DNA from: a virus
Direction: 5' to 3' (one strand)
IMG/VR virus record: IMGVR_UViG_3300025806_000166
Span: 1 to 26,998 of that record
DNA length: 26,998 nucleotides
Below the pieces are notes generated by a model. It worked only from the letters and a program-made list of their open reading frames with translations, searched no databases and was not told the DNA's origin. The position numbers were made by a program, and so were the translations under genes. Every line of letters starts with the position of its first letter. The first letter of the stretch is position 1. Of this stretch, positions 4,301-24,222 are shown in pieces.

Positions 4301-7300
4301 AGGCTGTTAATAACTCATTGTTTAAACGTACTAATCCTTTAGCAGAGTTACTTGCTATAGCTGGACCGCAAGTTAAACAAAGCAGAACTCCAGCAATACA
4401 AACTGAACAAGTACAACAATTAATAGAAGAAGCACCTGAATTAGAAGTACCTGACATATCAGGCATTAACTATTCAGGAAACTTATATAAGTTTAAAGAC
4501 AATATAAATGCCAGTGATCTTGTAATGAATTTAAAACGTATAGTAAAAAGAACTATGCCTGATGCAGATGTGCGTGCAGTAGATAATTTATTTGATGAAG
4601 AAGGTAATGAAGTAGCCGGTGTAACTATTGGTGACATGATAGCTATAAATTTAGAAACAAACCCTGAGAGTGGTAGACCTAGATTTGCTTCACCTACAGA
4701 CACTGTGTATCACGAAGCTGTGCATTACTTTATAAATAATAATTATTTTAAACCAGAAGTATTACAAATTTTAGCCGAGAATCAACAACGAATATTTGAT
4801 ATTGCTAATTCAAGATTAAAACAAGGCGAAGATCAAACTGCAACTGTACAAAATTTTGAGGAAGCTGTTGCTGTAGCATCAGGATATTACAACGAACAAA
4901 AACTACAAGGCAGAATTCCTTTTGAATTTACACCGGGAATTAGAAGAGTATTTGAACCTATCTTTAAATTTTTTAATCAAGTTTCTAAATATTTTAGTGG
5001 CAAAAAATACAGAAGATTAGAAGATGTATTTGATGCAATTAGAACAGGTGATTTATATCAAGATGCAGTAGACAACCCTAGAATACTTAGTCCACCTCAA
5101 CAACAATTTTCTGATGAACTGTTTAAACGAACTGGTTATGTTGGATCATATAAAGGCGGACCATTAACTGAAGACATGAATCTTGATTATGATGCAGAAA
5201 GGAACATGACACCTTTATATAGCAGATCACCTTCTTTTGGGCTTGTAGAATTAAAGACTAGTAAGATGGGTCAAAGAATTGATAGGTTACAAGAGGCTGT
5301 GGATAACACTAAAACTAAATCTACTAAAGCAGACAAATGGTTAACAACTAATAAACAAGGACAAGAGTTGCTTACAGGTTCTAATATACCTTTTAATAAA
5401 CTTTATTTACAAGACACAAGATTAGAAGAATGGTTAGCAGAACAAGTAAATAAAGATGGTGTACCAAGAGAAGTAAACATAGATGAAATAAAAAACTATC
5501 TTAAAACTAATACTGGTTTTATATCTATGCAAATGACAGGTGGTGATATTACAACTTATGTAAGAGCAACCAATCTTGATGAACAACAAACTATAAAATA
5601 TTATCAAGATGAAATAAAAAATAACTCTATATCTTTAAATATACTTACATCAGGTGTGCAATCACATTTAGTAAATCAAGATGCAATTTATAAGAAATTA
5701 AAAGAAGAGTTTTATACAGGTCCAGATGATCAAGCATCAGGAGCATTTTATAATTTAACTAGAAATTTAGATGAAATAGAAAAGTCTTATAAAAAATTAA
5801 ACTTATCAATGAAACTTCCCATAGAAAGAAACTTTGATATTTTAAGACAAGCATTAAATGTAGAAACTAAATCACCTGATTTTATTTTTTCAGATTCTAA
5901 AGCTGGCGATATTGAAATAGCAATTAATCAATTAACTGTATCAGGACAGTTGCTACAAGATAAAGATGCTTTAAGAAAAGCTGACCCTGATGGTTACTTA
6001 GAAAAATTTTTAGTAGCTTTAGAAAACAATCAAATTGTTAGTGATCCTGTTATAGAAATCTTAGATGAAATAAATGCAGATTCATTTGATGGTGGTTTTA
6101 GATATACTAAATTAGATATACAAGACAACAAATTAACTCAGTTAATTAATGCAAGAAATTCAGCAAAAAGATCATATGAATATTTTTCAAAGTTACTATA
6201 TGGGGAAGGCGCACTAGGAGAATTAAATCCAACTATTAGGTCTTCATATAATCCTGCTGCATATCAAACAACTCCCGGATTTAATATAGATACTACGAGT
6301 GGAAAATTTACTGACATACAAAGACTAGCATTCAAAGCTTTAAAAGATGGTAATCCTAATAAATCAGAAGGACAAATATTAACTGAACAAGTCCAAGGTA
6401 TACCACAAGAAGTTAAAAATTTAACAGAAGAAGAGTTAGCAGAGTTTACACGTACACGTACTTTTGGAGAAGAGTCTGAGTATGGAACTACAGTACAAGT
6501 AGAAAATAGTAGAAACATTGTTTACTCTTGGAATCCGGGACCTTCACAAGAACAAAAAGGTTATTATCAAAATCCACATTTTCCTAATGGCACACGTAAT
6601 GCTTTTGTACACGCTAGAGTCAAAGATGTTTATATATTAGATGATAACAATACACTTAGAAAAATTTTATATATAGATGAAGTTCAATCTGATATGTATG
6701 CAGATGTTAAAAGAGCCATAGATAAATATCTTAAAGAATTAAATGTTGGTGATCCTAGAAAAGAAGCAGGAGCATCTGCCCTAACAGAAGCAGAGGTTAA
6801 AGAAGCATTAGAAGGGTATCCTACTACTAAAGATATGCCAGCTATACCGCTAATAGGATTTCCTAATCCTAACTTTAATAAGTGGCAAGATTTTATTATT
6901 GAAGAAATGAATATGCTTGCTGTTAACGAAGGATTTGATGGCATAGCTATTGCAAGTACAGCAATACAAGCAGAAAGAAATGGTAATAATTTAAAAAATA
7001 ATTTTAACTTTCTAAGTTTTTATCCTTCAGTTAGTCCAAGAGATATTGGTATTAGTTTAAGTACGGAATTAACTCATCTTCCTTCTGGACAAAAAGTAGA
7101 AGAAAGTTCTTTGCTACAACAAGGATATGTAACACAAGAGGAAATAAATCAAGATAATCCTTCTAATCCTAAACAAACTATAAGTGCAGCTGCACAATAT
7201 TTTGCTGATGTATTTACAAGAGATACTAATTCATATGAGTTTCAAACATATGTAAATTATGCTCGTTTAGTTGGCATGACAGATGGATTCATTAGTCAAG

Positions 7301-10300
7301 ATATGACTTTATCTTTAGAAGATTCTAATCCAATACGTCAACATTATGTAAATGCTTCTAATTATTTAGGTAGTGGTAACACAGAAAGTTTAGTTGGAAG
7401 TGTATCTTCTATATTGCCAAATGATTTAGCTAATTTAATAAAAGGTCAAATACAAAATGGTATTAGACCAAACATGCAAAGACCTGATATCAATGTTATT
7501 ACACAAGAAGAAGCTAGATTAGACCAAAATAATAATTTAACTATTGATACTTCAAGACTACTACGTAATGCAGGTAATCAACCAGCCATAGGTGCTGGCT
7601 ATATAAACTTAAGAAAGTTAACTACTAATCAAACAGAACAATTCTTTTCTAAATCAGGATGGGATATATACAGCAATACTTATCCTAATAAAATTAAAAA
7701 GTCTTTAGATAAACTAGGTGTTAAATATGAAACACAAGGTCAATCTGTTAAAGAAATAATACAAGATATATTTGGTGCAGATTCAGATGTAACTATAAAC
7801 AATGTAGGAGATAGAGACTTTCATTCTAATAGACAATATCAAGTACCATATGATGAGTTAGTAGAGCAAGAACAATTTACTATAGATGAAATTATATTTA
7901 GAACTAAAGCTGAAATAGATGCAAGAAAAGGTAAACCTTTATTATTACAAACAGCTTTTAGAAATAATTCAAGATTGCTTTACAAAGGTGAACCAACTAA
8001 AAAACATTTATCAAGATTTAATGTACCTATATTTACTTTTGATAGTAATGAGCAAGTAGTAAAAAATCCAGCTAAGTATTCAAGCACACCATCTGATGCA
8101 CAAAAAGCTAGTTATTGGAAAAGGATTACAGGATTCTTAGGCAACTTATCTCAAACTAAATACTTTAGTGGACTTGGTGGATTACCACAGTTAAAAGAGT
8201 TTATGAACTTACGTTATAGAACTGCTGGTGATATAAGACTAGCAGAGAAAGTAGCTGTAGATATGTATAACGATCTTGGTCCATATCTTAATCCTAAGAA
8301 AACAAACAAGAGTGAACAAGAGTTTAAACGTAATAGACGTGAGTTTAATTCATACATAGAAGGTGGTGTAGATGCAGATGCCTCACTTATAACCGATGAA
8401 AACCTACGTAAAGTTGCAGTAAAAACTAAAAAAGCAATAGATAGAGTAGGTGTTTTATTAGTTAATAATGGTTTGCTACCAACATCAAAGTTTGAAGAAA
8501 ATAGAGGAAGCTATCTGCCTAAGTTATATATGAAATATATACTTGATAATCCAAGTGGACAAAAACTAGCATACTTAAAGAAAAGAAAAGAATTAACAGA
8601 CGAAACTAGAATGATACTCGGAGACATACAAGAATTGTCACCTGAGTATAGAGTATTAGCTGGTATACAAAGACCTTTAAGAGATATGGCTATATTAGAT
8701 TTCTTTAATCAAGTTTCTAAGAATCAAAATTGGGCATTGCGTGATAAAGATATGCTTGTTGCAATAGAACAAGATGGTCAAACACAAAAGGTAAGTGCCT
8801 TGTGGTTACTTGAAGAATCAAAAAGATTGAGAGAACAAGCTGATTATTTTAGACAAGGCGAACCAGAACAAGCTGCAAGAATGGAATCATTAGCTAAACA
8901 ATATGAAGATTTAGGCAAGCCAGTTGCAGAGTCATTAGGATATGGCAATGATAATCCTATTGATGACAGGTTTAGAAGACTACCTACAAGTAAACAATAC
9001 GGAATGCTTAGAGGTGTTGCTGTAAGAAAAGAAATATACGATGACGTAGTAGGTACTTTTAGTATGGGTGATACTGATAATGCATTTAGTAAAACTATAG
9101 CTGCTTTAGAAAAAGGAACAAGTATATGGAAGCTTCTTAAAGTACCATTGAATCCACCTACAGTAGTACGTAACGTAGGTTCTAACATGATACTTATGAA
9201 TCTTGTAGGAGGTATACCTATACATAAAGTTATACCAAGAATGAGACAAGCTATTGAACAAATAAGAACTGATGGTAAGTATTGGAAGATAGCAGAAGAC
9301 TTTGGCATACAAGGAACAGGGTTTACAGATGCTGAAATGTATAGAGTAAGTGAAGAGTATTTAGATTTATTACAAGAACAAGATGCATTAGGACCCGTAG
9401 CTAAATTTTTTAGATTGCCAAAAATATTAGTACAAAAAACATTTAAGAAAGCTGGAGATATATATCAATTTACTGAGTCAGTAGGTAAAACAGCTATCAT
9501 AATAGATGCAATGGAAAGACAAGGCATGACAGACTTTGATGCTTTTATGTTGGCACAAAAATCTTTATTTGATTATTCAGATGTACCAGCAGCTGGTAAA
9601 TTATTTAGGAAAGCACCAATAGGTATGCCTTTCTTTACATTTTATTACAAAGCTTTTCCAGCATTAGTAGAGACTGCTATTAATCATCCATTTAGATTTG
9701 CACCATATGTAGCATTATCTGCTGGTCTTACTGCACTATCTGCATATGCATTTGGTTTTGAAGATGATGAAGAAAAAAAATTACAGAAAGGTTTAGAGCC
9801 TTGGCTTTCAAAAAGAACTGGTGTTTATGTATTGCCATACAAAGATTCTGAAGGAAGATATCAATTTTTAGATATAGGTTATTTCTTTCCTTGGACTATG
9901 TATACAGATGTAGTGAGGGATGCTGCTAATGGTGATTTTTTTGAAGCACAAAGAACAACAGGATTTTTATCAGGACCTTTTGCAGATATATTCTTAGCAA
10001 TAAAAACAAACAAAGACCCGTTTACACAGAGAACAATATGGGATGAACGTGATCCCGTAGAAGATAGAATACAAAATACATTGTGGTATATGTATAGTTT
10101 AGGTATGCCATCATGGTTAACACCTAATGGTGCTATAAGTAAAACTGCTAAAGCATTACAAGATATACCTAGACCTACAGGATCACCATCAGATACTGTG
10201 CCACAAGCATTGCTAAGATTTGTTGGAGTAAATGTTTATGGACTTGATCCTGTAGAAACAAGAAATAGAAATGTTAAAAAAATGAGACAAGAAATTCTTG

Positions 10301-10485
10301 ATGTACAACAGAGATTTAAATATGCAATGGCTAATAAATCTTACACAGAAGAAAAGAAAGAAAGATTAAGAGTGAAGTACATGCAAATGATAAAAGAAAA
10401 AGTAAATTTACTACAACAATATAAAATAGATACAGCTATACCAAGACATATATTAGAAAGGGAGAGTAAGTTCCAAGATGGATAG
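1384..10485 (+). CDS. Giant polyvalent virion-type protein (3033 aa)
   Basis: At 3033 residues this single frame takes up a third of the window. The N-terminus carries two related short motifs (NPFEIFG, PDPFDIFD). Alanine/glycine-rich hydrophobic helices follow at about 150-330, and long Glu/Gln/Lys coiled-coil-like stretches at about 410-1000. HEAVH at 1110-1114 is an HExxH zinc-peptidase motif. Residues about 1710-2150 resemble a domain recurrent in large phage proteins, with EVQSD at 1766-1770. From about residue 2580 (KVPLNPPTVVRNVGSN and onward) the C-terminus resembles the LPD38 type of large polyvalent protein, with a hydrophobic segment at about 2772-2795. Such proteins are thought to be packaged and injected with phage DNA. 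A purine-rich AGAGGA lies about 20 bases before the ATG. The next gene starts inside its last 8 bases. Domain names are from memory; the exact role is unknown. Confidence 0.8.
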   Translation: MADEPRNTPNPFEIFGSTTGNTPDPFDIFDTYQRPPTQDNTSNQLGTDKVNDRSLPIFGLATNNFTPDENDWIDSVIAAPRGVLRGAARTIPLLGEGVWGLLDLATNLSGQEDWLNPRESAFISRMDELREAIGAEDSVAGRTGEALGSILGFVGTTVLTGGAGAASRLGAGYNALKAGELTAGAATKGLASAMQLAAPGSAIGVAEASGRMREYEAETGEDLSVADRNLVYALGVPLGATEILPIVRPLSILLSKITKRGLPKETIDTYMDLARSAVITGTAEGAQEALASIGQDAIEKGVYNESASIGDSIASEFGYGGGAGAIFDLGVNLLTKGRPKGGRPVGPIEDESDGLTGEETGEVEDASTTDVGRTSTVRDFTGSEEIVLKDEFVIPTEKEPSPIISPVIKGKTATETKEEKLKEIEAELQELDNLKNPDDVANLLDINSPEYQAINHRIEALKVLRNVLQSGGKNKDKAFNETTLDEFIEAHIEEQQQNDFRLQNAKTLNDSETTNLKERTKQNAQRRKEARENILIDPAFLDPASLNQDVLTPTATGLQAEIEAQAQTFKDEVPTIPDVEEQIKTEAVRQQLQEVNPELQANLEQEVQLERQIQELEDADQLTEADQLKEQIDTVKKKQVELIKKEKVPVKRSRLVQTFNRPDGESFTARFPDRESIDAYSNKNVVKTKNKLNITTPAYSQFKNKYDAYVTEEVNSAYKSDTRDFKLQSFKDFVAQEQATVQTEDILSQANFKNIDTNNDAFKRFLFLNTKKTNIKDLTGLQRRSIFRQIEALPTQTATKTSIDKAFSESIDNRQAFSKNEAIKERTKELQNKYNTNQLLDIAKSSGVSEEFIQDTVGQRDKATIARGIARREINNQISAEENYEQVAVRTVPNVQVRKVKTKASDQAKGFQQYSVLYPDDTVLKTLIPANIDVTDAKEQAARQTFAQRVEKLEQENTKIKEAPDASQQDYIQAVNNSLFKRTNPLAELLAIAGPQVKQSRTPAIQTEQVQQLIEEAPELEVPDISGINYSGNLYKFKDNINASDLVMNLKRIVKRTMPDADVRAVDNLFDEEGNEVAGVTIGDMIAINLETNPESGRPRFASPTDTVYHEAVHYFINNNYFKPEVLQILAENQQRIFDIANSRLKQGEDQTATVQNFEEAVAVASGYYNEQKLQGRIPFEFTPGIRRVFEPIFKFFNQVSKYFSGKKYRRLEDVFDAIRTGDLYQDAVDNPRILSPPQQQFSDELFKRTGYVGSYKGGPLTEDMNLDYDAERNMTPLYSRSPSFGLVELKTSKMGQRIDRLQEAVDNTKTKSTKADKWLTTNKQGQELLTGSNIPFNKLYLQDTRLEEWLAEQVNKDGVPREVNIDEIKNYLKTNTGFISMQMTGGDITTYVRATNLDEQQTIKYYQDEIKNNSISLNILTSGVQSHLVNQDAIYKKLKEEFYTGPDDQASGAFYNLTRNLDEIEKSYKKLNLSMKLPIERNFDILRQALNVETKSPDFIFSDSKAGDIEIAINQLTVSGQLLQDKDALRKADPDGYLEKFLVALENNQIVSDPVIEILDEINADSFDGGFRYTKLDIQDNKLTQLINARNSAKRSYEYFSKLLYGEGALGELNPTIRSSYNPAAYQTTPGFNIDTTSGKFTDIQRLAFKALKDGNPNKSEGQILTEQVQGIPQEVKNLTEEELAEFTRTRTFGEESEYGTTVQVENSRNIVYSWNPGPSQEQKGYYQNPHFPNGTRNAFVHARVKDVYILDDNNTLRKILYIDEVQSDMYADVKRAIDKYLKELNVGDPRKEAGASALTEAEVKEALEGYPTTKDMPAIPLIGFPNPNFNKWQDFIIEEMNMLAVNEGFDGIAIASTAIQAERNGNNLKNNFNFLSFYPSVSPRDIGISLSTELTHLPSGQKVEESSLLQQGYVTQEEINQDNPSNPKQTISAAAQYFADVFTRDTNSYEFQTYVNYARLVGMTDGFISQDMTLSLEDSNPIRQHYVNASNYLGSGNTESLVGSVSSILPNDLANLIKGQIQNGIRPNMQRPDINVITQEEARLDQNNNLTIDTSRLLRNAGNQPAIGAGYINLRKLTTNQTEQFFSKSGWDIYSNTYPNKIKKSLDKLGVKYETQGQSVKEIIQDIFGADSDVTINNVGDRDFHSNRQYQVPYDELVEQEQFTIDEIIFRTKAEIDARKGKPLLLQTAFRNNSRLLYKGEPTKKHLSRFNVPIFTFDSNEQVVKNPAKYSSTPSDAQKASYWKRITGFLGNLSQTKYFSGLGGLPQLKEFMNLRYRTAGDIRLAEKVAVDMYNDLGPYLNPKKTNKSEQEFKRNRREFNSYIEGGVDADASLITDENLRKVAVKTKKAIDRVGVLLVNNGLLPTSKFEENRGSYLPKLYMKYILDNPSGQKLAYLKKRKELTDETRMILGDIQELSPEYRVLAGIQRPLRDMAILDFFNQVSKNQNWALRDKDMLVAIEQDGQTQKVSALWLLEESKRLREQADYFRQGEPEQAARMESLAKQYEDLGKPVAESLGYGNDNPIDDRFRRLPTSKQYGMLRGVAVRKEIYDDVVGTFSMGDTDNAFSKTIAALEKGTSIWKLLKVPLNPPTVVRNVGSNMILMNLVGGIPIHKVIPRMRQAIEQIRTDGKYWKIAEDFGIQGTGFTDAEMYRVSEEYLDLLQEQDALGPVAKFFRLPKILVQKTFKKAGDIYQFTESVGKTAIIIDAMERQGMTDFDAFMLAQKSLFDYSDVPAAGKLFRKAPIGMPFFTFYYKAFPALVETAINHPFRFAPYVALSAGLTALSAYAFGFEDDEEKKLQKGLEPWLSKRTGVYVLPYKDSEGRYQFLDIGYFFPWTMYTDVVRDAANGDFFEAQRTTGFLSGPFADIFLAIKTNKDPFTQRTIWDERDPVEDRIQNTLWYMYSLGMPSWLTPNGAISKTAKALQDIPRPTGSPSDTVPQALLRFVGVNVYGLDPVETRNRNVKKMRQEILDVQQRFKYAMANKSYTEEKKERLRVKYMQMIKEKVNLLQQYKIDTAIPRHILERESKFQDG

Positions 10486-11906: not shown

Positions 11907-12374
11907 ATGCCTTCTAAACGCCCTGATGAATTACTGCTGATAGCTTCCATGATTATTGTCATGTTTGTAGTTTTATCTGTACAAGCTGATGAAATGACAC
12001 ACAAGTTTAAGAACCCTAGTTTCTCAGGGGTTGGTACCTCAAGTCATTACTTAACTATAGAGAATCAAGAGTTCAATAGGAAAGAAACTATACGAGAAGA
12101 GATCAGGGCATATACAGAAGACCTAGAGAGAGAGGCTGAGAACACTACGTTAGCTAGGTTTATACGTAACTTAGAGAGTAGAATATATGCACAACTCAGC
12201 AGACAGTTGGTTGATAGTTTGTTTGGTGAGACTGCATCTGATTTTGGTACGCTAGAATTAGAAGGTAACACCATAGAATATAGAGTAGAGGAAGATAAAG
12301 TAACACTAATAATTACAGATGAAGAAGGCAATACTACAGAAATTACTGTTCCCTTGGGTTCTTTTACTTTCTAA
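11907..12374 (+). CDS. csgF: CsgF-like curli channel accessory protein
   Basis: In curli systems CsgF is secreted to the outer surface, docks into the CsgG channel and links it to fibre nucleation. The 155-residue protein starts with a signal peptide (hydrophobic core about 9-25, likely cleavage after VQA at residue 27). The mature N-terminus matches the CsgF channel-plug pattern: Met30-Thr31, Phe34, Asn36-Pro37, Phe39 and Gly41. The C-terminus has the CsgF-like beta segment with an NTTEITV strand. It is somewhat longer than E. coli CsgF (about 138). No convincing ribosome binding site precedes 11907. Its last 56 bases also encode the CsgG signal peptide in the +1 frame. Context with csgG makes the call secure despite low identity. 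Confidence 0.87.
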   Translation: MPSKRPDELLLIASMIIVMFVVLSVQADEMTHKFKNPSFSGVGTSSHYLTIENQEFNRKETIREEIRAYTEDLEREAENTTLARFIRNLESRIYAQLSRQLVDSLFGETASDFGTLELEGNTIEYRVEEDKVTLIITDEEGNTTEITVPLGSFTF

Positions 12375-13170
12375 TTGCGCTTTAATAGTAGACCCATTGG
12401 GTAATGGGATACCTCCAATAAGAAGTATTGAGTCAGCAGAGGTTGGTGCTTTACTTACTAACCTTTCAGAAGTAGATACACCTATAAAGAAACCTGTAGT
12501 AGCTGTATATCCTAATTCTTTTAAAGACGATACAGGACAACGAAGAAGTAATAGTCAGTACGCAAGCTTTAGTACAGCTATTACACAGTCACCTGATGCT
12601 TACCTAATACGAGCATTGAAACATTCCAATGTATTTAATGTAGTTGAACGTAAAGGTTTAGATAATCTTACTAAAGAAAGACAGATCATACGTACTACTA
12701 GAGAAAACTTTGATGAAAAACAAAAGGTAAAACCTTTATTGTTTGCTGGAATACTAATGGAAGGTGGTGTTGTAGGTTATGAAACTAATGTTAAGTCAGG
12801 TGGTGCAGGTGCAAGATACCTTGGTATAGGTGGTTCAAAACAATACAGACAAGACTCCGTAACTATATCTTTACGTACAGTATCAGTCAGTACAGGTGAA
12901 ATATTGATTGAAGTATTAGTAACTAAGTCAATTCTTAGTGCTTCTATAACACAAGATGTATTTAGATTCTATAACAATAATACTGAATTAGTTGAAATTG
13001 AGAGTGGTATAGTAGAAAATGAGTCTATAAACATTGCTTTACAGATGGCAGTAGAGACAGCGGTTTTACAAACAATAGAGGAGGGCTATGCAGAAGGCTA
13101 TTGGAAACATGAAAATAATATTAATCAGCCTAGTTGTGATAATGAGTGTATCTCTGATTTACGGGGCTGA
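12319..13170 (+). CDS. csgG: CsgG-like curli secretion channel lipoprotein
   Basis: CsgG forms a nonameric outer-membrane channel for unfolded curlin subunits. The 283-residue product matches along its whole length. It has a lipoprotein signal ending LLLSNC with Cys20 as the lipidated residue (Asn at -1 is unusual), a DDTGQ segment, FSTAITQSPDAYL at 84-96, and ERKGLDNLTKER at 110-121. The family hallmark GYETNVKSGGAGARY lies at 153-167, followed by STGEIL and VFRF. Phe84 aligns with the constriction Phe56 of E. coli CsgG; the neighbouring constriction Tyr and Asn are not clearly kept. The start must be at or near 12319 because Cys20 is only two bases past the csgF stop, so the 56-base overlap is real. 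The family assignment is very secure. Confidence 0.95.
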   Translation: MKKAILQKLLFPWVLLLSNCALIVDPLGNGIPPIRSIESAEVGALLTNLSEVDTPIKKPVVAVYPNSFKDDTGQRRSNSQYASFSTAITQSPDAYLIRALKHSNVFNVVERKGLDNLTKERQIIRTTRENFDEKQKVKPLLFAGILMEGGVVGYETNVKSGGAGARYLGIGGSKQYRQDSVTISLRTVSVSTGEILIEVLVTKSILSASITQDVFRFYNNNTELVEIESGIVENESINIALQMAVETAVLQTIEEGYAEGYWKHENNINQPSCDNECISDLRG

Positions 13171-13825
13171 CAACGAAATATTTATAGACCAGTCAGGTGC
13201 TACATCTAATTTGGATATAGAGCAGGTAGGTGGTAGTGGTAATATAATTGGTGGAGCAACTGCTGCTGCTGGTTCTATGACAGCATTAGATATTGATGGT
13301 GCGACTATGACCTTAGATATATTACAGAAAGGTAATACAAATAAATTCCTTGGTGATATATGGGCAGATAACTACACAGGTTACTTCTCTTTTATAGGTG
13401 ATACCAACACATTTAATATGTCTACAGATGAGACCAATGCTACAGGTGCAGATGGTTCTAATGTAAATGTACAGGTTACAGGCAATACAAATACGTTTAC
13501 ACTCAATCACGCTATGACTGCACTTGCAGCTAACTTAGATTTAGATTGGACAATACAAGGTTCAGGAAACTCAATAACTTCATCTATAGATGTAGATGGT
13601 GCTACAAACTTTATGGATATAGATGGTAGTGATAATACAGTCACCTATGATGGGGATGGGTATGCTGGAGGTTATTTTTACTTAGATCATACAGGTAGTA
13701 CAAGGACATTTAACATAGATCAGGAGTCTACATCAGATAATGACTGGCTTAAAATTACATCTGTTGGCTCTAGTGGTACTGTCTGTGTTACTCAGTCAGA
13801 CGCAACTACTTCATTCATCTGTTGA
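13109..13825 (+). CDS. Secreted curlin-repeat protein (CsgA/CsgB-like)
   Basis: This is the likely substrate of the CsgG channel. From the ATG at 13109 the product is 238 residues, with a signal peptide (hydrophobic core 3-18, cleavage about YGA at 20). An upstream ATG at 13088 has GGAGGG only 2 bases away and would add a poor extension, so 13109 is preferred; GAAGG lies 11 bases before it. The mature part has degenerate curlin repeats of the form I-x-Q-x-G-x-x-x-N, for example I26-Q28-G30-N34 and I37-Q39-G41-N45, and later LQKGNTN, VTGNTNTF and IQGSGN. It is rich in Gly, Asn, Asp and Thr and poor in Lys and Arg, as expected for a beta-solenoid amyloid. Two Cys lie near the C-terminus. It overlaps csgG by 62 bases and the FecR gene by 86. 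Confidence 0.82.
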   Translation: MKIILISLVVIMSVSLIYGADNEIFIDQSGATSNLDIEQVGGSGNIIGGATAAAGSMTALDIDGATMTLDILQKGNTNKFLGDIWADNYTGYFSFIGDTNTFNMSTDETNATGADGSNVNVQVTGNTNTFTLNHAMTALAANLDLDWTIQGSGNSITSSIDVDGATNFMDIDGSDNTVTYDGDGYAGGYFYLDHTGSTRTFNIDQESTSDNDWLKITSVGSSGTVCVTQSDATTSFIC

Positions 13826-14855
13826 GATAGGCTCTATATCTGAAGTAAGAGGCAATGCACAGGTCCTTAGAGACAAACCTTATGGTGCTGAACTAGCATT
13901 TAACATACAACAAATGGATGATGTCCGTACAGAAACGGGCAGAGTTGCCATAACTTTTGCGGATTCTTCTACAGTAAAACTTACAGAGCATTCTAAGCTA
14001 GTAATAGATGAGTACATCTATGACCCTGACCCATCTAAATCAAAGATGGCACTCAAGTTTGCTAGTGGTACAGCACGTTTTATTACAGGCAAGTTCAATA
14101 ATAAAAGCAACATATCTATACGTACGCCAACAGCCCAGATTGCAATCAGAGGCACAGACTTTACATGTACAGTAGATGAACTAGGAAGAAGTCTAGTTAT
14201 ATTATTGCCTGATGAAAATGGTATATCTAGTGGTGAAATTATAGTGTCTACCGGTATGGGTAGTGTAACTTTAAATAAACCCTATCAAGCTACTACAGTA
14301 TCTGTTTACGAAAACAATCCTACTAAGCCTGTTACCTTAGACATATCACTGGACTTGATAGATAACATGTTGATTGTTAATCCTCCACAAGAAGTAGAAC
14401 AATCAATAGAAGAATCACAAACACAATCTACAGTAGACTATTTAGAGTTTGATGATCTTGATATAGATTATCTTGCCGAAGATTTCTTAGATGCAGAAGC
14501 AGAACTAGAGTTTACTGAACTAGATATTAACTATTTAGATGTAAACTTTCTTGAAGATTTACTAAATGTATTAGATGCATTAGCTATAACGAAAGAAGAA
14601 GATGCACTCAAGCAAGGTGGTGTTGGTATTCGTATAGCTGGTACAGATATAGGACAAGACAAAGACACACAGATTACAACTATAGTCTCAGGACAGAACA
14701 TAAGTCTTACAAGAACAGTAAACCAAAGTGCTAAACTAAACTTAGATGGTTCTGATAGTTATACAATTATACTCATACAAGATGGTGTATCTAATACAGT
14801 AAAAATTAATGGTGGTTCATCAACAACAATAACAATTAAACAAAGTTCAGGATGA
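13740..14855 (+). CDS. FecR-domain periplasmic protein with curlin-like tail
   Basis: The 371-residue protein starts with a signal peptide (hydrophobic about 5-23). A FecR domain spans about 30-190, with the typical core RTPTAQIAIRGTDF at 128-141. FecR domains are periplasmic sensor or ligand modules and are often encoded next to CHASE2 cyclases. After it comes an acidic region with a near-duplicate (EFDDLDIDYL at 236-245, EFTELDINYL at 257-266). The C-terminus (about 318-371) resembles curlin repeats: I346-Q347-G349-N352 and a final Q368-S-S-G. This points to contact with, or nucleation of, the upstream curlin-like protein. The signal peptide is encoded within the last 86 bases of the curlin gene. 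CAGGAG lies 13 bases before the ATG. It overlaps the cyclase gene by 4 bases (ATGA). Confidence 0.86.
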   Translation: MTGLKLHLLALVVLSVLLSQTQLLHSSVEIGSISEVRGNAQVLRDKPYGAELAFNIQQMDDVRTETGRVAITFADSSTVKLTEHSKLVIDEYIYDPDPSKSKMALKFASGTARFITGKFNNKSNISIRTPTAQIAIRGTDFTCTVDELGRSLVILLPDENGISSGEIIVSTGMGSVTLNKPYQATTVSVYENNPTKPVTLDISLDLIDNMLIVNPPQEVEQSIEESQTQSTVDYLEFDDLDIDYLAEDFLDAEAELEFTELDINYLDVNFLEDLLNVLDALAITKEEDALKQGGVGIRIAGTDIGQDKDTQITTIVSGQNISLTRTVNQSAKLNLDGSDSYTIILIQDGVSNTVKINGGSSTTITIKQSSG

Positions 14856-16618
14856 AAAAAAGTATTATATTTATAGGTTTATTTCTTACATTAGGTTCAG
14901 TCTATGTGTATCAGCCTATAGCTTACGAGATATTAAAACTTAAAACCTTTGATTCATTTGTAAAAGATCAAGAACCTTCAGGTTATTTTACTGTACTTAA
15001 TATAACTGAAGATGATATAACTAATGAGGGCGGTTATCCTTTACCAAGACAAAGGCTTGCAGAGGTGCAATCGCAGTTGATACAGAAGGGGGCTTTAGGT
15101 ATTGGCTGGGTAATCGCCTTCCCCCAGCCAGATAGATTTGGTGGTGACATAGAGTTTAAACATTCTCTTGAACAGGCTGCGTCAGTTCTGGCAATGTTTG
15201 AAGGTAACAATGGTTTATATCCACCTACTACTGGCACTGTAATACTAGGTGATGATATAGGCGGGATGCAAATAGAAGGTGTGATCCAGAATATTGATAT
15301 GTTTAAACAATCAACAGCCCAAGGATTAGCTGTTGCCCGGACTGATGTAGATAATTTAATAAGAAGGTTGCCTTTATTAATGCGTACACCTGATGGATGG
15401 ACACCAGCTTATGGAACAGAAGTATTAAAGATACTTGCCGGTGCAGATACCTACGTTATAAAAACAAATGATAATGGATTAGAAGAGATACGAGTTAAAG
15501 GTTTACCTGCTGTACCTGTAGATTCATTAGGTCGTAAGTGGATTAGTTGGGTTGATACACCTCAAACAGACTTAGCAACTATGGATGTACAAGATAAGTT
15601 TGTGTTCATAGGTTTTACAGCTAAAGGTATTATGCCTCAGTTGGCTACACCTGTAGGTTTATTAGAGCCACATAAAATACAAGCAAGTCTAGCTGAAAGT
15701 ATACTAATACAAGACAGTCCTTATATACCTGACTATGCATTAGCATTAGAGGTATTAATATTCATTGCCTCTACTGTATTTGTTTGGCTTGTATTGAACG
15801 TGTTTGGTATTACCTTGGGGATATCATTCTTTGCTATAGTTTTTTTATCTACAGCTACTTATGGAGTTTATACTATACAAAATGGTGTACTATTAGATGT
15901 AACATGGGCTTTAATATCTCAATTTATTACAGGAAGCGTTGCTTTTTATGTAAGATTTAGAGAACAATATAAGTTAAGACAACAAATAAAGAAACAATTT
16001 GAACATTACCTTGACCCTAGACAAGTTAAACAACTACAAAAAAATCCTAGCTTATTAAAGTTAGGAGGAGAAAAACGATATGCTACCTTCTTATTTACTG
16101 ATGTTCGGGGATTCACCTCTATGTCGGAGACTCTCGAACCGGAAGACGTTACCTATATTATGAACAAAGCTTTGACTGCACAGCAAAGTGCAGTGCAAAA
16201 GAATGGTGGTATGGTAGATAAATATATAGGCGATGCCATGATGGCAATATTTAATGCACCTATTAATCAAGACTTCCACGAAAACAAAGCCATAGATTGT
16301 GCTGTAGATATCCAGCGTAACATGGAAAGTTTAAACATAGAGTTAATGGACCGGGGTATCCCGGCTGTAGCTATTGGTATAGGTATTAATACAGGCTATG
16401 CAGTGATAGGTAACATGGGTAGTGAATCTAGGTTTGACTATACTGCTATAGGTGATGCAGTAAACATAGGTGCTAGGTTAGAAAGCGGAACAAAAGAAGC
16501 TGGCGTTGATGTATTAATAGGCTATAACACTGCCATTAAAAGCGATTATGAGTTAACATTATTAGAACCTTTACAAGTAAAAGGTAAGGAGAAACCACTA
16601 GATGTTTACACATTATAG
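14852..16618 (+). CDS. CHASE2-domain class III adenylate cyclase
   Basis: This is an inner-membrane sensor enzyme that should make cAMP from ATP. The 588 residues comprise an N-terminal membrane helix (about 4-24), a periplasmic CHASE2 sensor (about 30-290), and three membrane helices (about 295-370). A linker and a cytosolic cyclase domain (about 405-588) follow. Catalytic residues look intact: metal-binding Asp417 (FTDVRGFT) and Asp461 (YIGDAMMAIF), purine-selecting Lys457 and Asp529 (Lys/Asp favours ATP), and transition-state Asn538 and Arg542 (NIGARLE). The 4-base overlap with the FecR gene suggests a sensor pair, as seen in bacterial FecR-CHASE2 cyclase loci. The stretch around 16105-16150 has more GC-rich codons than its surroundings, a possible sign of transfer. 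Three GTTTAAAC sites lie inside the gene. Confidence 0.93.
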   Translation: MKKSIIFIGLFLTLGSVYVYQPIAYEILKLKTFDSFVKDQEPSGYFTVLNITEDDITNEGGYPLPRQRLAEVQSQLIQKGALGIGWVIAFPQPDRFGGDIEFKHSLEQAASVLAMFEGNNGLYPPTTGTVILGDDIGGMQIEGVIQNIDMFKQSTAQGLAVARTDVDNLIRRLPLLMRTPDGWTPAYGTEVLKILAGADTYVIKTNDNGLEEIRVKGLPAVPVDSLGRKWISWVDTPQTDLATMDVQDKFVFIGFTAKGIMPQLATPVGLLEPHKIQASLAESILIQDSPYIPDYALALEVLIFIASTVFVWLVLNVFGITLGISFFAIVFLSTATYGVYTIQNGVLLDVTWALISQFITGSVAFYVRFREQYKLRQQIKKQFEHYLDPRQVKQLQKNPSLLKLGGEKRYATFLFTDVRGFTSMSETLEPEDVTYIMNKALTAQQSAVQKNGGMVDKYIGDAMMAIFNAPINQDFHENKAIDCAVDIQRNMESLNIELMDRGIPAVAIGIGINTGYAVIGNMGSESRFDYTAIGDAVNIGARLESGTKEAGVDVLIGYNTAIKSDYELTLLEPLQVKGKEKPLDVYTL

Positions 16619-19749: not shown

Positions 19750-19897
19750 TGTAAGGCAGGAAGTTTTGTGAGTTAACTGCCTTACACTATCCATCTGTAC
19801 CTAAAGAGGACTAACCTTCATAACTTTGGGTGGCTGAAAGCACACACCCAGTGGCTAAAGAAGAAGGAAAATTAGTAAGGCTAAAAACCTTCTTCTT
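19750..19897 (-). repeat. Three hairpin-forming inverted repeats between ERF and SSB genes
   Basis: The 174-base gap between the two minus-strand genes holds three inverted repeats. The first is TGTAAGGCAG at 19750-19759 with CTGCCTTACA at 19777-19786 (10 bp perfect, 17-base loop). The second is TGGGTG at 19827-19832 with CACCCA at 19845-19850. The third is AAGAAGAAGG at 19858-19867 with CCTTCTTCTT at 19888-19897 (10 bp, 20-base loop), which includes part of the ERF stop codon. None is followed by a U-run in the minus direction. They could be RNA-stability or attenuation elements, or protein-binding sites. Confidence 0.5.
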
Positions 19898-20606
19898 ATA
19901 CTTCATCTTGATCTATGACTTCTCTGATCTTCTTCAACTCAGCTACTGCCTCATCAAACTTTTTCTTATCTTGCCTTTGTAACTGTGCAGTCTTTTCTGC
20001 ACCATCTAACCAAAGCCTTTCTACTTCAAGCACAGTATCTTTTCCCCTTGCCTCTTCAAGCAAGTTATCTATGAACACATGCAAATCTTCTGCCTTGCTA
20101 GGCTCTTTTACTTTGCCACCTTTCTGTACCTGTGGCTCAGCACCCACGTGATCTGTGTCTGCTATCTGTCCATCATCATCTACATCTGTAGCTATGTTAA
20201 GCATAGAACTCAGGGCATATCTACGCATGTACGTGAGCGCAGAACCTAATGCTTGTGCGCCATCACGCTGTTGTCTTAATGGCAACTCACTCTCTATCCA
20301 CTCACCACTGCTATGCAGTAGCCTAGTGATTAAAGTATTGCCTCTGTTACTTACGATTGGTATTTGCACAACAGATAAACCATGCTTACTAGTTATAGGA
20401 ACTATAACTTTTAATATGTCAGCTAAGTCAGCGTAACTATACTTGTAGCTTTTGCCATCATGTGTACGTACCTCAACTGTTTTTGTTTTAGGTATCGTTG
20501 GGAACTCTGATTGCGCCTCCGCTAATGCTGTGCCTAACTCACCTAATGTTTCACTAGTACGACTAGATACATTTACCTCGCCTGTACTTTCATTAATTAC
20601 TTCCAT
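19896..20606 (-). CDS. erf: ERF-family single-strand annealing recombinase
   Basis: ERF proteins bind single-stranded ends and anneal complementary strands during phage recombination and circularisation. The 236-residue product has the family core at about 37-160: YKYSYADLADIL, then KHGLSVVQIP, a LLHSSGEWIES block, GSALTYMRRYALSSML and the acidic VDDDGQ. This is a full match to P22 Erf-type annealases. The C-terminal 70 residues are charged and helical, as expected for the oligomerisation or partner-binding part. It overlaps the exonuclease gene upstream by 14 bases, and the two would act as a pair. Confidence in the family is high. Confidence 0.93.
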   Translation of the reverse strand: MEVINESTGEVNVSSRTSETLGELGTALAEAQSEFPTIPKTKTVEVRTHDGKSYKYSYADLADILKVIVPITSKHGLSVVQIPIVSNRGNTLITRLLHSSGEWIESELPLRQQRDGAQALGSALTYMRRYALSSMLNIATDVDDDGQIADTDHVGAEPQVQKGGKVKEPSKAEDLHVFIDNLLEEARGKDTVLEVERLWLDGAEKTAQLQRQDKKKFDEAVAELKKIREVIDQDEV

Positions 20607-21444
20607 CTATTTCTCCTAGATATTGATCACAAAATTTAGATACATCACAGAACTTACCACAACGAATCGCCTCGCCCTTGCGGTGTTCTATAATATAATC
20701 CTCGTGTTCCTGTAAAAATTCGTCAGCCTCTTCCTGAGTGTCATAGAGTTTAAACGCTCTCTTACCACCGGATTTCATCACCGCAAACTTGTCAGGTCTC
20801 TTCCATCTTTCCTCGTCTGTACAATCAGGCAGGGTGATAGAAGATAGCTGATGCGCCTCCACTCTGTCACGCACAAATTCTTCTTGTTCTGCAAAAGTCC
20901 ATAGGTCTATGTCAGTTACAGTCACTTCACTTTGTGGGTAAGAGGGATTTCTTTCAGCCTCAAATGAGGAATGGTCACGTATGATATTAACAATCTGTAG
21001 TTGGGTTACTTCCCTACCATTCTTGCGAGCAAGCCAAGCATAAATGTTTAGTTGCTCTACATCACTACGTCTACCATTCATCACGGCATAAGCCTTACGG
21101 GTTTTCCAGTCCATAATTGTTACACCTTGAGGGTCTAATCTTTGTACATCTATTTGACCTGATACTGTCCATCCACAACACTGAGCAAAGTATCTTTGCT
21201 CTAAGATATAACCATCTAGTGTTCCTAATTCTAGGATATGATGCACCGCTCTTCCAAACAGAGACCACACTTGCTTGGATACATCTACTACGATTTGATC
21301 GTCATGTTGATATGCTAGGTGCGCTTGTCTAGGTGGCTTGAGTAGTCCAGTTGCAGATATGTCAGCCTTGCCACGTGAATACGTATCGCGGGCTACTGCT
21401 TTCGCAAAAACATCCGGAAGATTATTCACATTGCTATACTTCAT
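20593..21444 (-). CDS. Cas4/RecB-like PD-(D/E)XK exonuclease
   Basis: The 283-residue protein should resect DNA ends to give strands for ERF. Nuclease motifs are in order: His68 (GRAVHHILE), Asp99 (SGQIDV), Asp112-Trp-Lys114 (the D-x-K core) and Gln131 with Tyr135 (EQLNIYAWL). The C-terminus has a Cys cluster (RCGKFCDVSKFC) like the iron-sulfur site of Cas4 and AddB. The usual first Cys, in a CPRxxxL-type motif, is replaced by Pro in KPPRQAHL (36-43); a CC pair at 89-90 might substitute. It is the first gene of the minus-strand arm. The start at 21444 has a weak purine-rich site and promoter-like boxes upstream. Confidence 0.88.
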   Translation of the reverse strand: MKYSNVNNLPDVFAKAVARDTYSRGKADISATGLLKPPRQAHLAYQHDDQIVVDVSKQVWSLFGRAVHHILELGTLDGYILEQRYFAQCCGWTVSGQIDVQRLDPQGVTIMDWKTRKAYAVMNGRRSDVEQLNIYAWLARKNGREVTQLQIVNIIRDHSSFEAERNPSYPQSEVTVTDIDLWTFAEQEEFVRDRVEAHQLSSITLPDCTDEERWKRPDKFAVMKSGGKRAFKLYDTQEEADEFLQEHEDYIIEHRKGEAIRCGKFCDVSKFCDQYLGEIDGSN

Positions 21445-21613: not shown

Positions 21614-21639
21614 CTTGCAATTAAAATACATTCTATAGT
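21612..21639 (+). promoter_or_regulatory. Candidate promoter for structured RNA and primase operon
   Basis: TTCTTG (21612-21617) and TATAGT (21634-21639) are separated by 16 bases, a sigma-70-like arrangement with a weak -35 box. The predicted transcript start, about 21647-21651, coincides with the beginning of the structured RNA candidate, which strengthens both calls. Confidence 0.4.
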
Positions 21640-21649
21640 ATTTTGTAAA

Positions 21650-21950
21650 AGAGACAAGCGGAGGGGTAAGACCATAGCACTTGTCATTAAATGGTTACTA
21701 TGGGATTCATACACAGCCAAATGCGAGACCGAAAGTGTGAACGCAGTATGACTTAAAGCACTATTCTTTAAGTATGTAGCACACAAATTAGACACTAGGT
21801 GCAGTAGTCTAATGCCATCAGCGATGTCCGAGAAGATTAGCATGGTATCTAGGTCACACCCTTGCATTAGCAGGGGATGTGAAACCTATGCCATAACTCA
21901 ATCCTCAAAGAATAGCATGAGAGTAAGTCCATAAATAAACTGGAGAAAAA
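21650..21950 (+). ncRNA. Highly structured RNA or leader upstream of the replication genes
   Basis: About 300 bases with no convincing gene form successive stems on the plus strand. CCATAG (21672-21677) pairs with CTATGG (21698-21703). TCATAC (21707-21712) pairs with GTATGA (21746-21751), with an inner TGCG/CGCA. ACTTAAAG (21751-21758) pairs with CTTTAAGT (21766-21773). ATTAGAC (21787-21793) pairs with GTCTAAT (21807-21813). A long hairpin at 21842-21894 has about 22 pairs, including two G-U pairs, with small bulges and an ATTA loop. The loop sequence CTATT of the third stem is complementary to AATAG at 21911-21915, a possible pseudoknot. The RNA ends at the ribosome binding site GGAG (21942) of the next gene. 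I do not recognise a known RNA class. Confidence 0.6.
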
Positions 21951-21951
21951 A

Positions 21952-22239
21952 ATGGAAAATGAATATGCCTTTGAAGGTGTTGTAATCAGACTTAAAAAGA
22001 CTGACTATGACAAATGGCTTAAAACCTTCACAAATATCCCCAACTTAGATGCAGTCCTTATGTCAAGGGATGTATGGTTATCAGAAGAGGCTGACGATAA
22101 AGCAAGAAAGAAATGGTATATGTCTACTGTTAACTATCTTGTTAATGTTGATGCAAGATTCAAGGATAAGAATAAGAAAGACGAACAAGGAAGAAGGCTT
22201 GGAGAAAATGGCAAGCATATATTTAAGAGGATGCCATGA
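21952..22239 (+). CDS. Small phage replication-associated protein
   Basis: The 95-residue product has FEGVVIRLKKTDYDKWLKTF near the N-terminus, then a helix with DVWLSEEADDKARKKWYMS and a basic C-terminus. This pattern resembles a module often seen at the end of phage replication initiator or helicase-loader proteins ('F-G-VIRL...D---W...W---v---L'), here as a stand-alone protein. GGAG lies 6 bases before the ATG. It overlaps the primase-helicase by 4 bases (ATGA), so the two are made together and may interact. The family link is from memory and moderately sure; biochemical function is unknown. Confidence 0.72.
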   Translation: MENEYAFEGVVIRLKKTDYDKWLKTFTNIPNLDAVLMSRDVWLSEEADDKARKKWYMSTVNYLVNVDARFKDKNKKDEQGRRLGENGKHIFKRMP

Positions 22240-23957
22240 ACGAAGTTAAGCTAAGCAAAACAATAGACCAACAACTCAACGATAAACAAATATTTTTAAG
22301 GCACTATGATGTAGGGCAACAAAAAACTACTTGTCCTGAGTGTTCACATGACAGAAAGAATGCACGTGACTTGTGTTTATCAATCAATATAAATGAAGAG
22401 GGCGCACGATGGCGATGTCACCATTGCTTGTGGGAGGGTAACGCATGGAAGGAATCATTAAAGAGACCGCCACAGATTAGAAAGGTTGCGCCCAAGAAAC
22501 CATCCATAATACCCAATACAAAAAGTGTGCGAGGTACATGGGCGGAACAGTTCTTGAACGAGCGTGGAATAGACACGGACTTTGCTGACAAGCATGGGGT
22601 AGGTGTAGTCTCACATTTTGTTAACAACAAACGACAAGACTGCATAGCCTTCGTGTATAAGAATGAAGAGGGAGTGCCTGTAAATATAAAGTTTCGCACA
22701 CCCGACAAACACTACGCTCAGCTACCTGATTGCGAGAGAGTACCCTACCTAATAGATAGTTTAAACACAGACGAAGATACGATCCTTATCTGCGAGGGAG
22801 AAATGGATGCCCTCACATGGAAACTTATTACTGAAAACGTAATGTCTATACCCGATGGTGCAAGCGACAGGAAGATGGATTGGCTAGGAACTTTTGACTT
22901 CAACAAATACAAAAGAATATATCTTGCCTTAGACAACGATGATGCAGGCATTCAATGCAGAGAAGAGTTGGCAAGAAGAATAGGTAGAGAAAGATGTTTC
23001 ACAATATCCTATCCTGAAGATTGTAAAGATGGCAATGAGATACTGTGTAAACATAACAAGCCCATGCTCAAGCAGTGCTTTGAAACTGCCGAGCCATATC
23101 CAATCAAGTCTTTGTATACTGCGAATGGATTCATGGAAGAAGGGTTGCAGTTGTATAGAGGTGGACTACGCAAGGGTTTATCAACAGGCATAGAGACACT
23201 TGATGAAATATTTCTAGTGCGCCCATCAGAAGTTACGATCTGTAGTGGTGTACCAAACTGCGGTAAGTCAGAGTTCATAGATGCGATAGCTGTAAACATG
23301 GCACGTGATCACGATTATAAGTGGGCAATATGTTCCTTCGAGAATCCTGTATCAGAACATTTAAACAAGCTTGCTGAAAAGCATGTAGGTAAACCAACAA
23401 GGGATGGGTTGACTCCTAAGATGGATGAAGAAGAGTTGCTAGATTCTTATGACTGGTTGGCACAACACTTTTTCTTTATCAGATCAGAGGATGAATCGCC
23501 TACGATTGATTGGTGTCTTGAGGCAAGCACGAGTGCAGTCTTAAGGTATGGTGTGAACGCAGTTATCTTTGACCCATACAATGAGTTCGATCATCAAAGA
23601 CCACAGGGTATGACAGAGACTGAGTACGTGAGTCAGATGATGAGCAAGATTAAAAGGTTTGCCCTTACGTATGGTGTGCATGTGTTCTTTGTAGCACATC
23701 CGGCTAAGATGAGAAGGTCAGCCGATGGTGAGTTCCCTTTAGTAGAACCTTACGACATTGCAGGTAGTGCAAACTTTGCAAACAAGGCTGATGTCATACT
23801 GATTGTAGAAAGAGACTTCACGCAGGGGAGTAGGGATGTCAGGATACACACGAAGAAGATGAGGTTTAAACAGTCAGGAAGTTTGGGTATGGTGGACTTG
23901 GAGTATGACCCTATCAGTGGGCGATACTCCAAAGCTTTTGGATACCCGACTATTTAG
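22236..23957 (+). CDS. T7 gp4-like DNA primase-helicase
   Basis: This bifunctional enzyme primes and unwinds DNA at the phage fork. The 573 residues (T7 gp4 is 566) hold a zinc ribbon with C33-x2-C36 and C61-HH-C64. A TOPRIM primase domain follows, with EGEMD at 187-191 and DNDDAG at 233-238. A RecA/DnaB-type helicase has Walker A GVPNCGKS at 338-345 and a Walker B ending in Asp446 (AVIFDPYNEFD). The arrangement is complete and unbroken. It is coupled to the small upstream gene by ATGA. Its end overlaps the convergent minus-strand gene by 8 bases with no visible terminator. No DNA polymerase lies in the window, so the phage may carry it elsewhere or use the host's. Confidence 0.95.
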   Translation: MNEVKLSKTIDQQLNDKQIFLRHYDVGQQKTTCPECSHDRKNARDLCLSININEEGARWRCHHCLWEGNAWKESLKRPPQIRKVAPKKPSIIPNTKSVRGTWAEQFLNERGIDTDFADKHGVGVVSHFVNNKRQDCIAFVYKNEEGVPVNIKFRTPDKHYAQLPDCERVPYLIDSLNTDEDTILICEGEMDALTWKLITENVMSIPDGASDRKMDWLGTFDFNKYKRIYLALDNDDAGIQCREELARRIGRERCFTISYPEDCKDGNEILCKHNKPMLKQCFETAEPYPIKSLYTANGFMEEGLQLYRGGLRKGLSTGIETLDEIFLVRPSEVTICSGVPNCGKSEFIDAIAVNMARDHDYKWAICSFENPVSEHLNKLAEKHVGKPTRDGLTPKMDEEELLDSYDWLAQHFFFIRSEDESPTIDWCLEASTSAVLRYGVNAVIFDPYNEFDHQRPQGMTETEYVSQMMSKIKRFALTYGVHVFFVAHPAKMRRSADGEFPLVEPYDIAGSANFANKADVILIVERDFTQGSRDVRIHTKKMRFKQSGSLGMVDLEYDPISGRYSKAFGYPTI

Positions 23958-24222
23958 CTTTCTTTCTAATAACTTTAGTCTTAGATTTTTTAGCAGGTGC
24001 TTTCCCGCCCACCCATGCCTCGTTTACATCAGGTGTGGATGGGTCATCTGCTACAAACTTTCCTTTGATAGTTCGTTTGCGTACAACTGGCTCATCAGCT
24101 TTATAGTTTCCACCATATATATCTTTGCCTTCCTCTTCTGCTGTATCAACTTCTTCAACAACTTTATCTACAGGTTTTTCTATAAACCAATAATTAATCC
24201 ACGATTTAACTTTACTCAACAT
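23950..24222 (-). CDS. Conserved small phage protein, unknown function
   Basis: The 90-residue protein has an amphipathic N-terminus (KVKSWINYWFIEKPVDKVVEE), a charged middle and the segment KFVADDPSTPDVNEAWVGG, then a Lys-rich tail (KKSKTKVIRKK). The 'DDPSTPDVNEAW' segment is familiar from other phage genomes as an unknown. The basic tail suggests nucleic-acid or protein binding. It overlaps the upstream helix-turn-helix gene by 11 bases, so it belongs to the operon running from 26998 to 23950. No function can be assigned. Confidence 0.7.
   Translation of the reverse strand: MLSKVKSWINYWFIEKPVDKVVEEVDTAEEEGKDIYGGNYKADEPVVRKRTIKGKFVADDPSTPDVNEAWVGGKAPAKKSKTKVIRKKAK

Follow-up and report, generated by a model that had tools for sequence, protein, structure and literature searches.

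A conserved, pseudoknotted non-coding RNA at the head of a phage replication operon and its probable kinship to the RF02932 family

What lies between two divergent sets of phage replication genes, and what might it do for the phage? The stretch of DNA analyzed here ("the window") is the 26,998 nucleotides of virus record IMGVR_UViG_3300025806_000166. An interval at 21640-21951 separates a leftward operon, comprising an exonuclease gene (20593..21444, - strand; phrog_2139, 5e-50) and an Erf gene (19896-20606), from a rightward pair, ORF95 (21952..22239, + strand) and a primase-helicase with Toprim and DnaB C-terminal domains (22236..23957, + strand; phrog_239, 1e-90; Pfam DnaB_C and Toprim_2). 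A first-pass annotation had proposed a structured RNA in this divergent replication region. In this report, we conclude from a 30-sequence alignment and its pair counts that 21646-21934 of the + strand (ends approximate) is a non-coding RNA whose shape is kept in relatives by matched mutations. It has a core (21646-21816) and a 3' domain (21817-21934). We regard its structure, strand, conservation, position and non-coding status as established, together with the kinship of its 5' module to Rfam family RF02932 (Betaproteobacteria-1).

The first gene downstream of the RNA is ORF95, which is 38% identical to the C-terminal part of a 248-amino-acid replication protein in phage contig L217 (2533-3279). 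It thus appears to resemble the C-terminal portion of a larger phage replication protein that is itself encoded upstream of a DnaB helicase, and it looks like a stripped-down initiator. At the other end of the pair, the primase-helicase gene overlaps an opposite-strand gene (23950-24222) tail to tail by 8 bases (23950-23957).

Relatives were collected by scanning IMG/VR with the primase and ORF95, which yielded about sixty contigs; a pattern made from the most conserved block of the RNA retrieved the same group. The sequences extracted from upstream of ORF95 comprised 35 distinct ones, and the structural alignment contains 30. The core is 60-87% identical to its relatives, as against 67-85% for the ORF95 coding sequence, and identity falls to only 32-56% in the 190 nucleotides upstream of the core. 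With a covariance model of the window-type RNA (R1), each phage record yields a single copy. A second R1 match in the relative L133 (at 8090) falls inside a cyclase gene and was attributed to chance, as was a match to the core pattern in L121, which lies in high-GC coding sequence; 19 further core-pattern matches in genome contigs were close to the number expected by chance and were discarded. The window's cyclase gene (14852-16618), a phage gene conserved in L133, encodes a protein with CHASE2 and adenylate/guanylate cyclase domains (Pfam, 1e-24 and 4e-18). The genes preceding it (12319-14855) appear by eye to encode CsgG-like, curlin-like repeat and FecR-like proteins, and positions 1384-10485 encode a protein of 3033 amino acids that has no PHROG match.

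The evidence for the RNA fold is chiefly covariation. In the 170-nucleotide core, nine helices account for 51 pairs, and across the 30 distinct sequences 98.7% of the cells in these covarying helices are paired. Changes on both sides are found at 26 pairs, for a total of 231 such cells against 72 in shuffled alignments. The perfect or near-perfect stems seen in the first-pass annotation are indeed present, but it is the covariation that is decisive: its score is 0.459, whereas shuffled alignments give 0.185 and slid partners no more than 0.074. Sliding the partners by one to three columns also reduces pairing to 27-37%. Because helices P1-P8 were read from the same alignment, the pair counts lean towards the structure; the slid control and a separate, structure-blind scan for covarying stacked columns answer this bias. 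That scan recovered seven of the helices P1-P8 and added one that had been missed, P9.

The core is strongly interlaced. Helix P1 (21653-21658 with 21680-21685) is 100% paired (n=30), with two pairs changed on both sides. The pseudoknot P2 (21673-21677 with 21698-21702; 93% paired) crosses both P1 and P3, and its variants among relatives include CAUAG/CUAUG, ACAG/CUGU and AGUC/GAUU. P3 (21692-21696 with 21715-21719; 98% paired; UGGUU/AGCCA, AGGUU/AGCCU, GGCU/AGCC) crosses in turn P4 (21707-21712 with 21746-21751), which is 100% paired and has changed on both sides at five of its six pairs. Along the strand, P1, P2, P3 and P4 are therefore linked in series, each helix crossing the one that follows. 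P5 (21722-21725 with 21742-21745; 100% paired) varies from UGCG/CGCA to AGCG/CGCU and bears a conserved GA..CCgAAAG loop. From this loop, the pseudoknot P9 found by the structure-blind scan (21735-21739 with 21780-21784; 100% paired; GUGUG/CACAC, GAUUG/CAAUU, GACUG/CAGUC) reaches the joint after hairpin P6 (21752-21757 with 21767-21772; 100% paired). Hairpin P7/P7b (21787-21793 with 21807-21813 and 21794-21796 with 21803-21805, with a bulged A at 21806) is 98% paired, and eight of its ten pairs have changed on both sides. A loop-loop contact, P8 (21758-21761 with 21799-21802; 98% paired; GCAC/GUGC, GCAAA/UUUGC, GCGC/GCGC), connects the loops of P6 and P7.

The 3' domain is built around a long hairpin, P10 (21842..21894). 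It had been put at about 22 pairs, G-U pairs included, and has exactly 22; all relatives have a long hairpin at this position, with a different stem sequence. The folding energy of P10 is -27.8 kcal/mol, whereas shuffles average -13.6 (z -5.59), and none of 200 shuffles does as well. P10 is flanked by two copies of the motif AUGC(C/G) ... AGCAU, the ends of which are kept in nearly all 30 sequences. Unit 1 occupies 21812..21843; unit 2 (21888..21918), with the repeat AAGATTAGCATG/AAGAATAGCATG, overlaps the 3' end of P10. Covariation that would support AUGC/GCAU pairing within the units was not found, their ends being conserved.

G-U pairs, such as 21695-21716 (U-G in 24 of the 30 sequences), assign the RNA to the + strand. 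No reading frame across the stretch is kept among relatives. None of the outcomes that the first-pass annotation had named as fatal to its proposal came about, given the very strong covariation and the lack of a conserved frame. In the comparison of folding energy with shuffles that it had called for, P10 stands out strongly and the whole stretch 21640-21951 only modestly (z -2.0; opposite strand, z -2.9). The modest value is due to pseudoknots, which make up much of the structure and which a folding-energy test cannot see.

The RNA stops just short of the replication genes. It had been proposed to end at the ribosome-binding site of the replication operon, and it does so: CTGGAGA lies at 21940-21946 and the ATG of ORF95 at 21952. 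No terminator separates the RNA from ORF95 and the primase gene in the window or its relatives. The case for the promoter-like sequence that had been noted upstream is weak. Most relatives keep the blocks TTGCA (21615) and TATAGT (21634), possible promoter elements on the + strand (21615..21639), but the two lie too close together for a normal sigma-70 pair, and a consensus scan called no + strand promoter here.

Is this RNA already known? Its initial description as unlike tRNA, tmRNA, RNase P, 6S RNA or a group I intron stands: cmscan of the entire window against Rfam returned no family at or above its gathering score, and neither ARAGORN nor cmscan found a tRNA or tmRNA. That it was wholly undescribed is true only in part. 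No Rfam family reaches its cut-off, but the first ~80 nucleotides correspond, in our analysis, to the 5' module of RF02932 in a divergent form. We take RF02932 to be an orphan family of no known function that occurs in other phages and Burkholderia-type bacteria; a search of the available literature found no paper naming RF02932 or Betaproteobacteria-1 RNA. It was the sole recurrent weak match, in the same place and the same register in the window (E 0.074) and L033 (E 0.013), although the scores of 21.2 and 24.0 bits, respectively, fall below the gathering score of 49.4.

Four RF02932 sequences over the cut-off came from 300 genomes of one order, and a 5'-module pattern made from RF02932 members led to 19 viral contigs, among them L218, L220 and L226. 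R3, a model of the 5' module with 79 positions, was built solely from sequences that do not belong to the window's group and then applied to 121 kb from within it. It gave exactly five matches up to E 10, the window's own copy not being among them, and all five fall on this RNA in the right register (24.6, 23.2, 20.8, 14.0 and 12.0 bits; E 0.0017 to 1, E-values that are rough because calibration was short). In a control of 27 kb of HK022 and P4, its best score was 7.2 bits. Thus, R3 finds the 5' module, P1 and P3 with CGG..AC..CAG and ACUGUGGGA, in the window's group.

The two RNAs are alike in P1 with its CGG..AC..CAG loop, in the P2 pseudoknot, in ACUGUGGGA, in P3, and in a further helix that crosses P3. 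They then diverge. In RF02932, the 3' strand of P4 lies in the loop of P5, whereas in the window RNA it follows P5, which is UGCG/CGCA; the third hairpin of RF02932, GYUAGC...GCUGRC, with the P4 strand in its loop, was not found in the window. The strand that follows UGGGA in RF02932-type RNAs is paired to the third-hairpin loop (GUGCA/UGCAC, GAGGA/UCCUC, GUCUU/GAGAC and others), with at least five pairs in 23 of 30 sequences compared to a shuffled mean of 13 and a maximum of 21. The Rfam drawing omits both this pseudoknot and P2. No counterpart of P6-P9 or of the 3' domain was seen in RF02932. The link is limited to the 5' module; a reverse search with R1 over RF02932 loci found nothing, and R2, a model that finds chromosomal copies of RF02932-type RNA, scored just 13.6 bits on L033. 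Weighing these results, we consider it very likely that the 5' modules (P1, the P2 pseudoknot and P3; ~80 nucleotides) are homologous. Given the score below cut-off and the different arrangement of P4 and P5, we treat the window RNA as a new variant and not as a member of RF02932.

RF02932 RNAs occupy the genomic position of the window RNA, at the replication locus, in phages L218, L220 and L226, where they score 80-95 bits with the Rfam model. In L218, the RNA (2.7e-13) precedes an HNH gene and a primase-helicase, and these are divergent from an exonuclease and a second, Erf-type gene; the primase-helicase and exonuclease are 36% and 40% identical to those of the window. In L220 and L226, the RNAs (1e-15 to 1e-16) precede another replication gene, followed in L220 by a helicase, and the L220 RNA adjoins the same exonuclease (39%; the window's exonuclease is 38-40% identical to those of L218 and L220). 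Among phages fetched by the exonuclease protein alone, L298, L301, L305 and L310 carry an RF02932-type RNA (50-55 bits; E 4e-10 to 6e-9). Such an RNA was not found in Pelagibacter phage Baldr, Leptospira LE3, Synechococcus MinM2 or vir555, where a related exonuclease is present. BLASTN searches of sequenced phages gave no match to the window RNA or to RF02932-type RNAs, and a BLASTN search of plasmids gave none to one RF02932-type RNA. Across these phages, the first gene after the RNA differs: ORF95, HNH, DnaT-like or HTH-like. In L298, L310, L218 and L220, a second conserved hairpin (GAAGG...CUAGG..GGCUAGG...) lies downstream of the RF02932-type core and is a candidate 3' domain.

RF02932-type RNAs are also chromosomal. 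In the betaproteobacterial family of G261, model R2 detects them in 56 of 398 genomes, often with two or more copies per genome, and their neighborhoods vary. Whether a chromosomal copy is followed by a same-strand ORF does not discriminate, since random positions score 89% on this test. Defense genes or candidates adjoin three of the first few copies examined, a raw count with no base rate; the neighbors of the copies in L174, L176 and L172 are HmaB/HmaC, a PDC-S06 ATPase and a ZacB-like PLD protein (defense islands). In L357, L358, L359 and L360, two same-strand copies lie 3-13 kb apart, and the similarity between them reaches 150-480 nucleotides, past the 120-nucleotide Rfam model. Probably the family model is too short; alternatively, the copies may be repeats at the ends of islands.

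What, then, does the RNA do? Our tentative preference, on comparative grounds, is for an early RNA that acts in its own right and comes first in the replication transcript. An RNA of ~290 nucleotides would be produced at the 5' end of the ORF95 and primase-helicase transcript. Its 170-nucleotide core folds into a compact, interlaced pseudoknot, followed by the 3' domain with its long hairpin between two AUGC...AGCAU copies. Delivered as the front part of the transcript, and perhaps cut from it, the RNA would probably bind a protein of the host or of the phage at an early stage of infection. We prefer this explanation because related RNAs precede quite different first genes and sit in varied chromosomal contexts, which argues against a switch specific to one gene. 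Against it, in the window's relatives the RNA is always followed closely by ORF95 and the primase-helicase, with no intervening terminator, as a cis-acting leader would predict.

Such a leader, of the riboswitch or autoregulated type, would sense a protein or metabolite and set the translation or transcription of ORF95 and the primase-helicase. This is the main rival, given the constant pairing with these genes in the window's group and the absent terminator, yet we judge it less probable. The RNA lies directly upstream of ORF95 at conserved spacing and runs to the ribosome-binding site without an intervening terminator. Further, AUGCC is common to unit 2 and the P10 stem, so P10 and unit-2 pairing could be mutually exclusive. 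But the differing first genes in other phages and the varied settings of the chromosomal copies fit it poorly, and the structure-blind column scan found no covarying alternative pairing onto the ribosome-binding site.

Three further explanations are less likely than a cis-acting leader. The transcript could serve at a replication origin, either as a persistent hybrid or primer, for which ColE1 RNAII is the model, or by helping to load the ORF95/primase-helicase machinery. The RNA does head replication genes in several phage groups, and ORF95 apparently corresponds only to the C-terminal part of a longer replication protein. On the other hand, chromosomal copies occur without replication genes, a search for iterons found none, and GC skew tracks gene direction and marks no origin. 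We therefore think an origin RNA improbable, and a shade more doubtful the specific proposal that the RNA marks the origin or loads the primase-helicase there in place of a missing N-terminal half of the initiator, with RF02932 as a wider family some of whose members were captured by bacteria.

The RNA, probably the first thing transcribed, might also stay on RNA polymerase as an antiterminator, as does put of phage HK022, which likewise forms the 5' end of an early phage transcript. The put RNA has ~70 nucleotides and two stem-loops; it works from this 5' position and needs no dedicated protein factors (PMC9378689). The structure of the window RNA is different: neither the put sequence nor its two stem-loops were found, R3 reached at best 7.2 bits on HK022, and there is no similarity to the HK022 sequence. 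Nor does the locus suit the role, as there is one copy per genome rather than one per early operon, and the operon has only two genes before it meets genes on the opposite strand (23957/23950). Long-range antitermination is also disfavored by two long relatives (59 kb), where the RNA lies with ORF95 and the primase in a short + strand island amid - strand genes. Thus, this role seems quite improbable.

P4 CI RNA is a trans-acting immunity RNA cut from a leader. An RNA of that kind, shutting the same operon in a second phage and captured by bacteria as an immunity gene, is the least likely of these roles: the place is the same as in P4, in the leader of a primase-helicase operon, and several chromosomal copies adjoin defense genes (HmaB/HmaC, PDC-S06; a raw count with no base rate), but R3 has no match in P4, Rfam C4 has none in the window, and these phages show no sign of a temperate lifestyle.

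P4 CI and C4 RNAs, which we take to arise from the leader of a primase-helicase operon as the window RNA would, are much smaller than it, and neither the C4 family nor the P4 sequence matches it. GOLLD and ROOL resemble it as ornate, pseudoknotted phage RNAs whose function is not known. They are larger, at 600-800 nucleotides, and are often near tRNA islands (PMC12286853); neither has an Rfam match in the window.

RNAs with such conservation and interlacing usually perform a precise, protein-like task, and to our knowledge few such phage RNAs have a known function. The present findings give the orphan family RF02932 a testable setting: its RNAs head replication or early operons in several groups of phages, and chromosomal copies are common in one betaproteobacterial family. 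They also add to it a pseudoknot absent from the Rfam model and a second, larger architecture. Taken with the genomic contexts, they suggest that the RF02932 family may have a role linked to phage replication.
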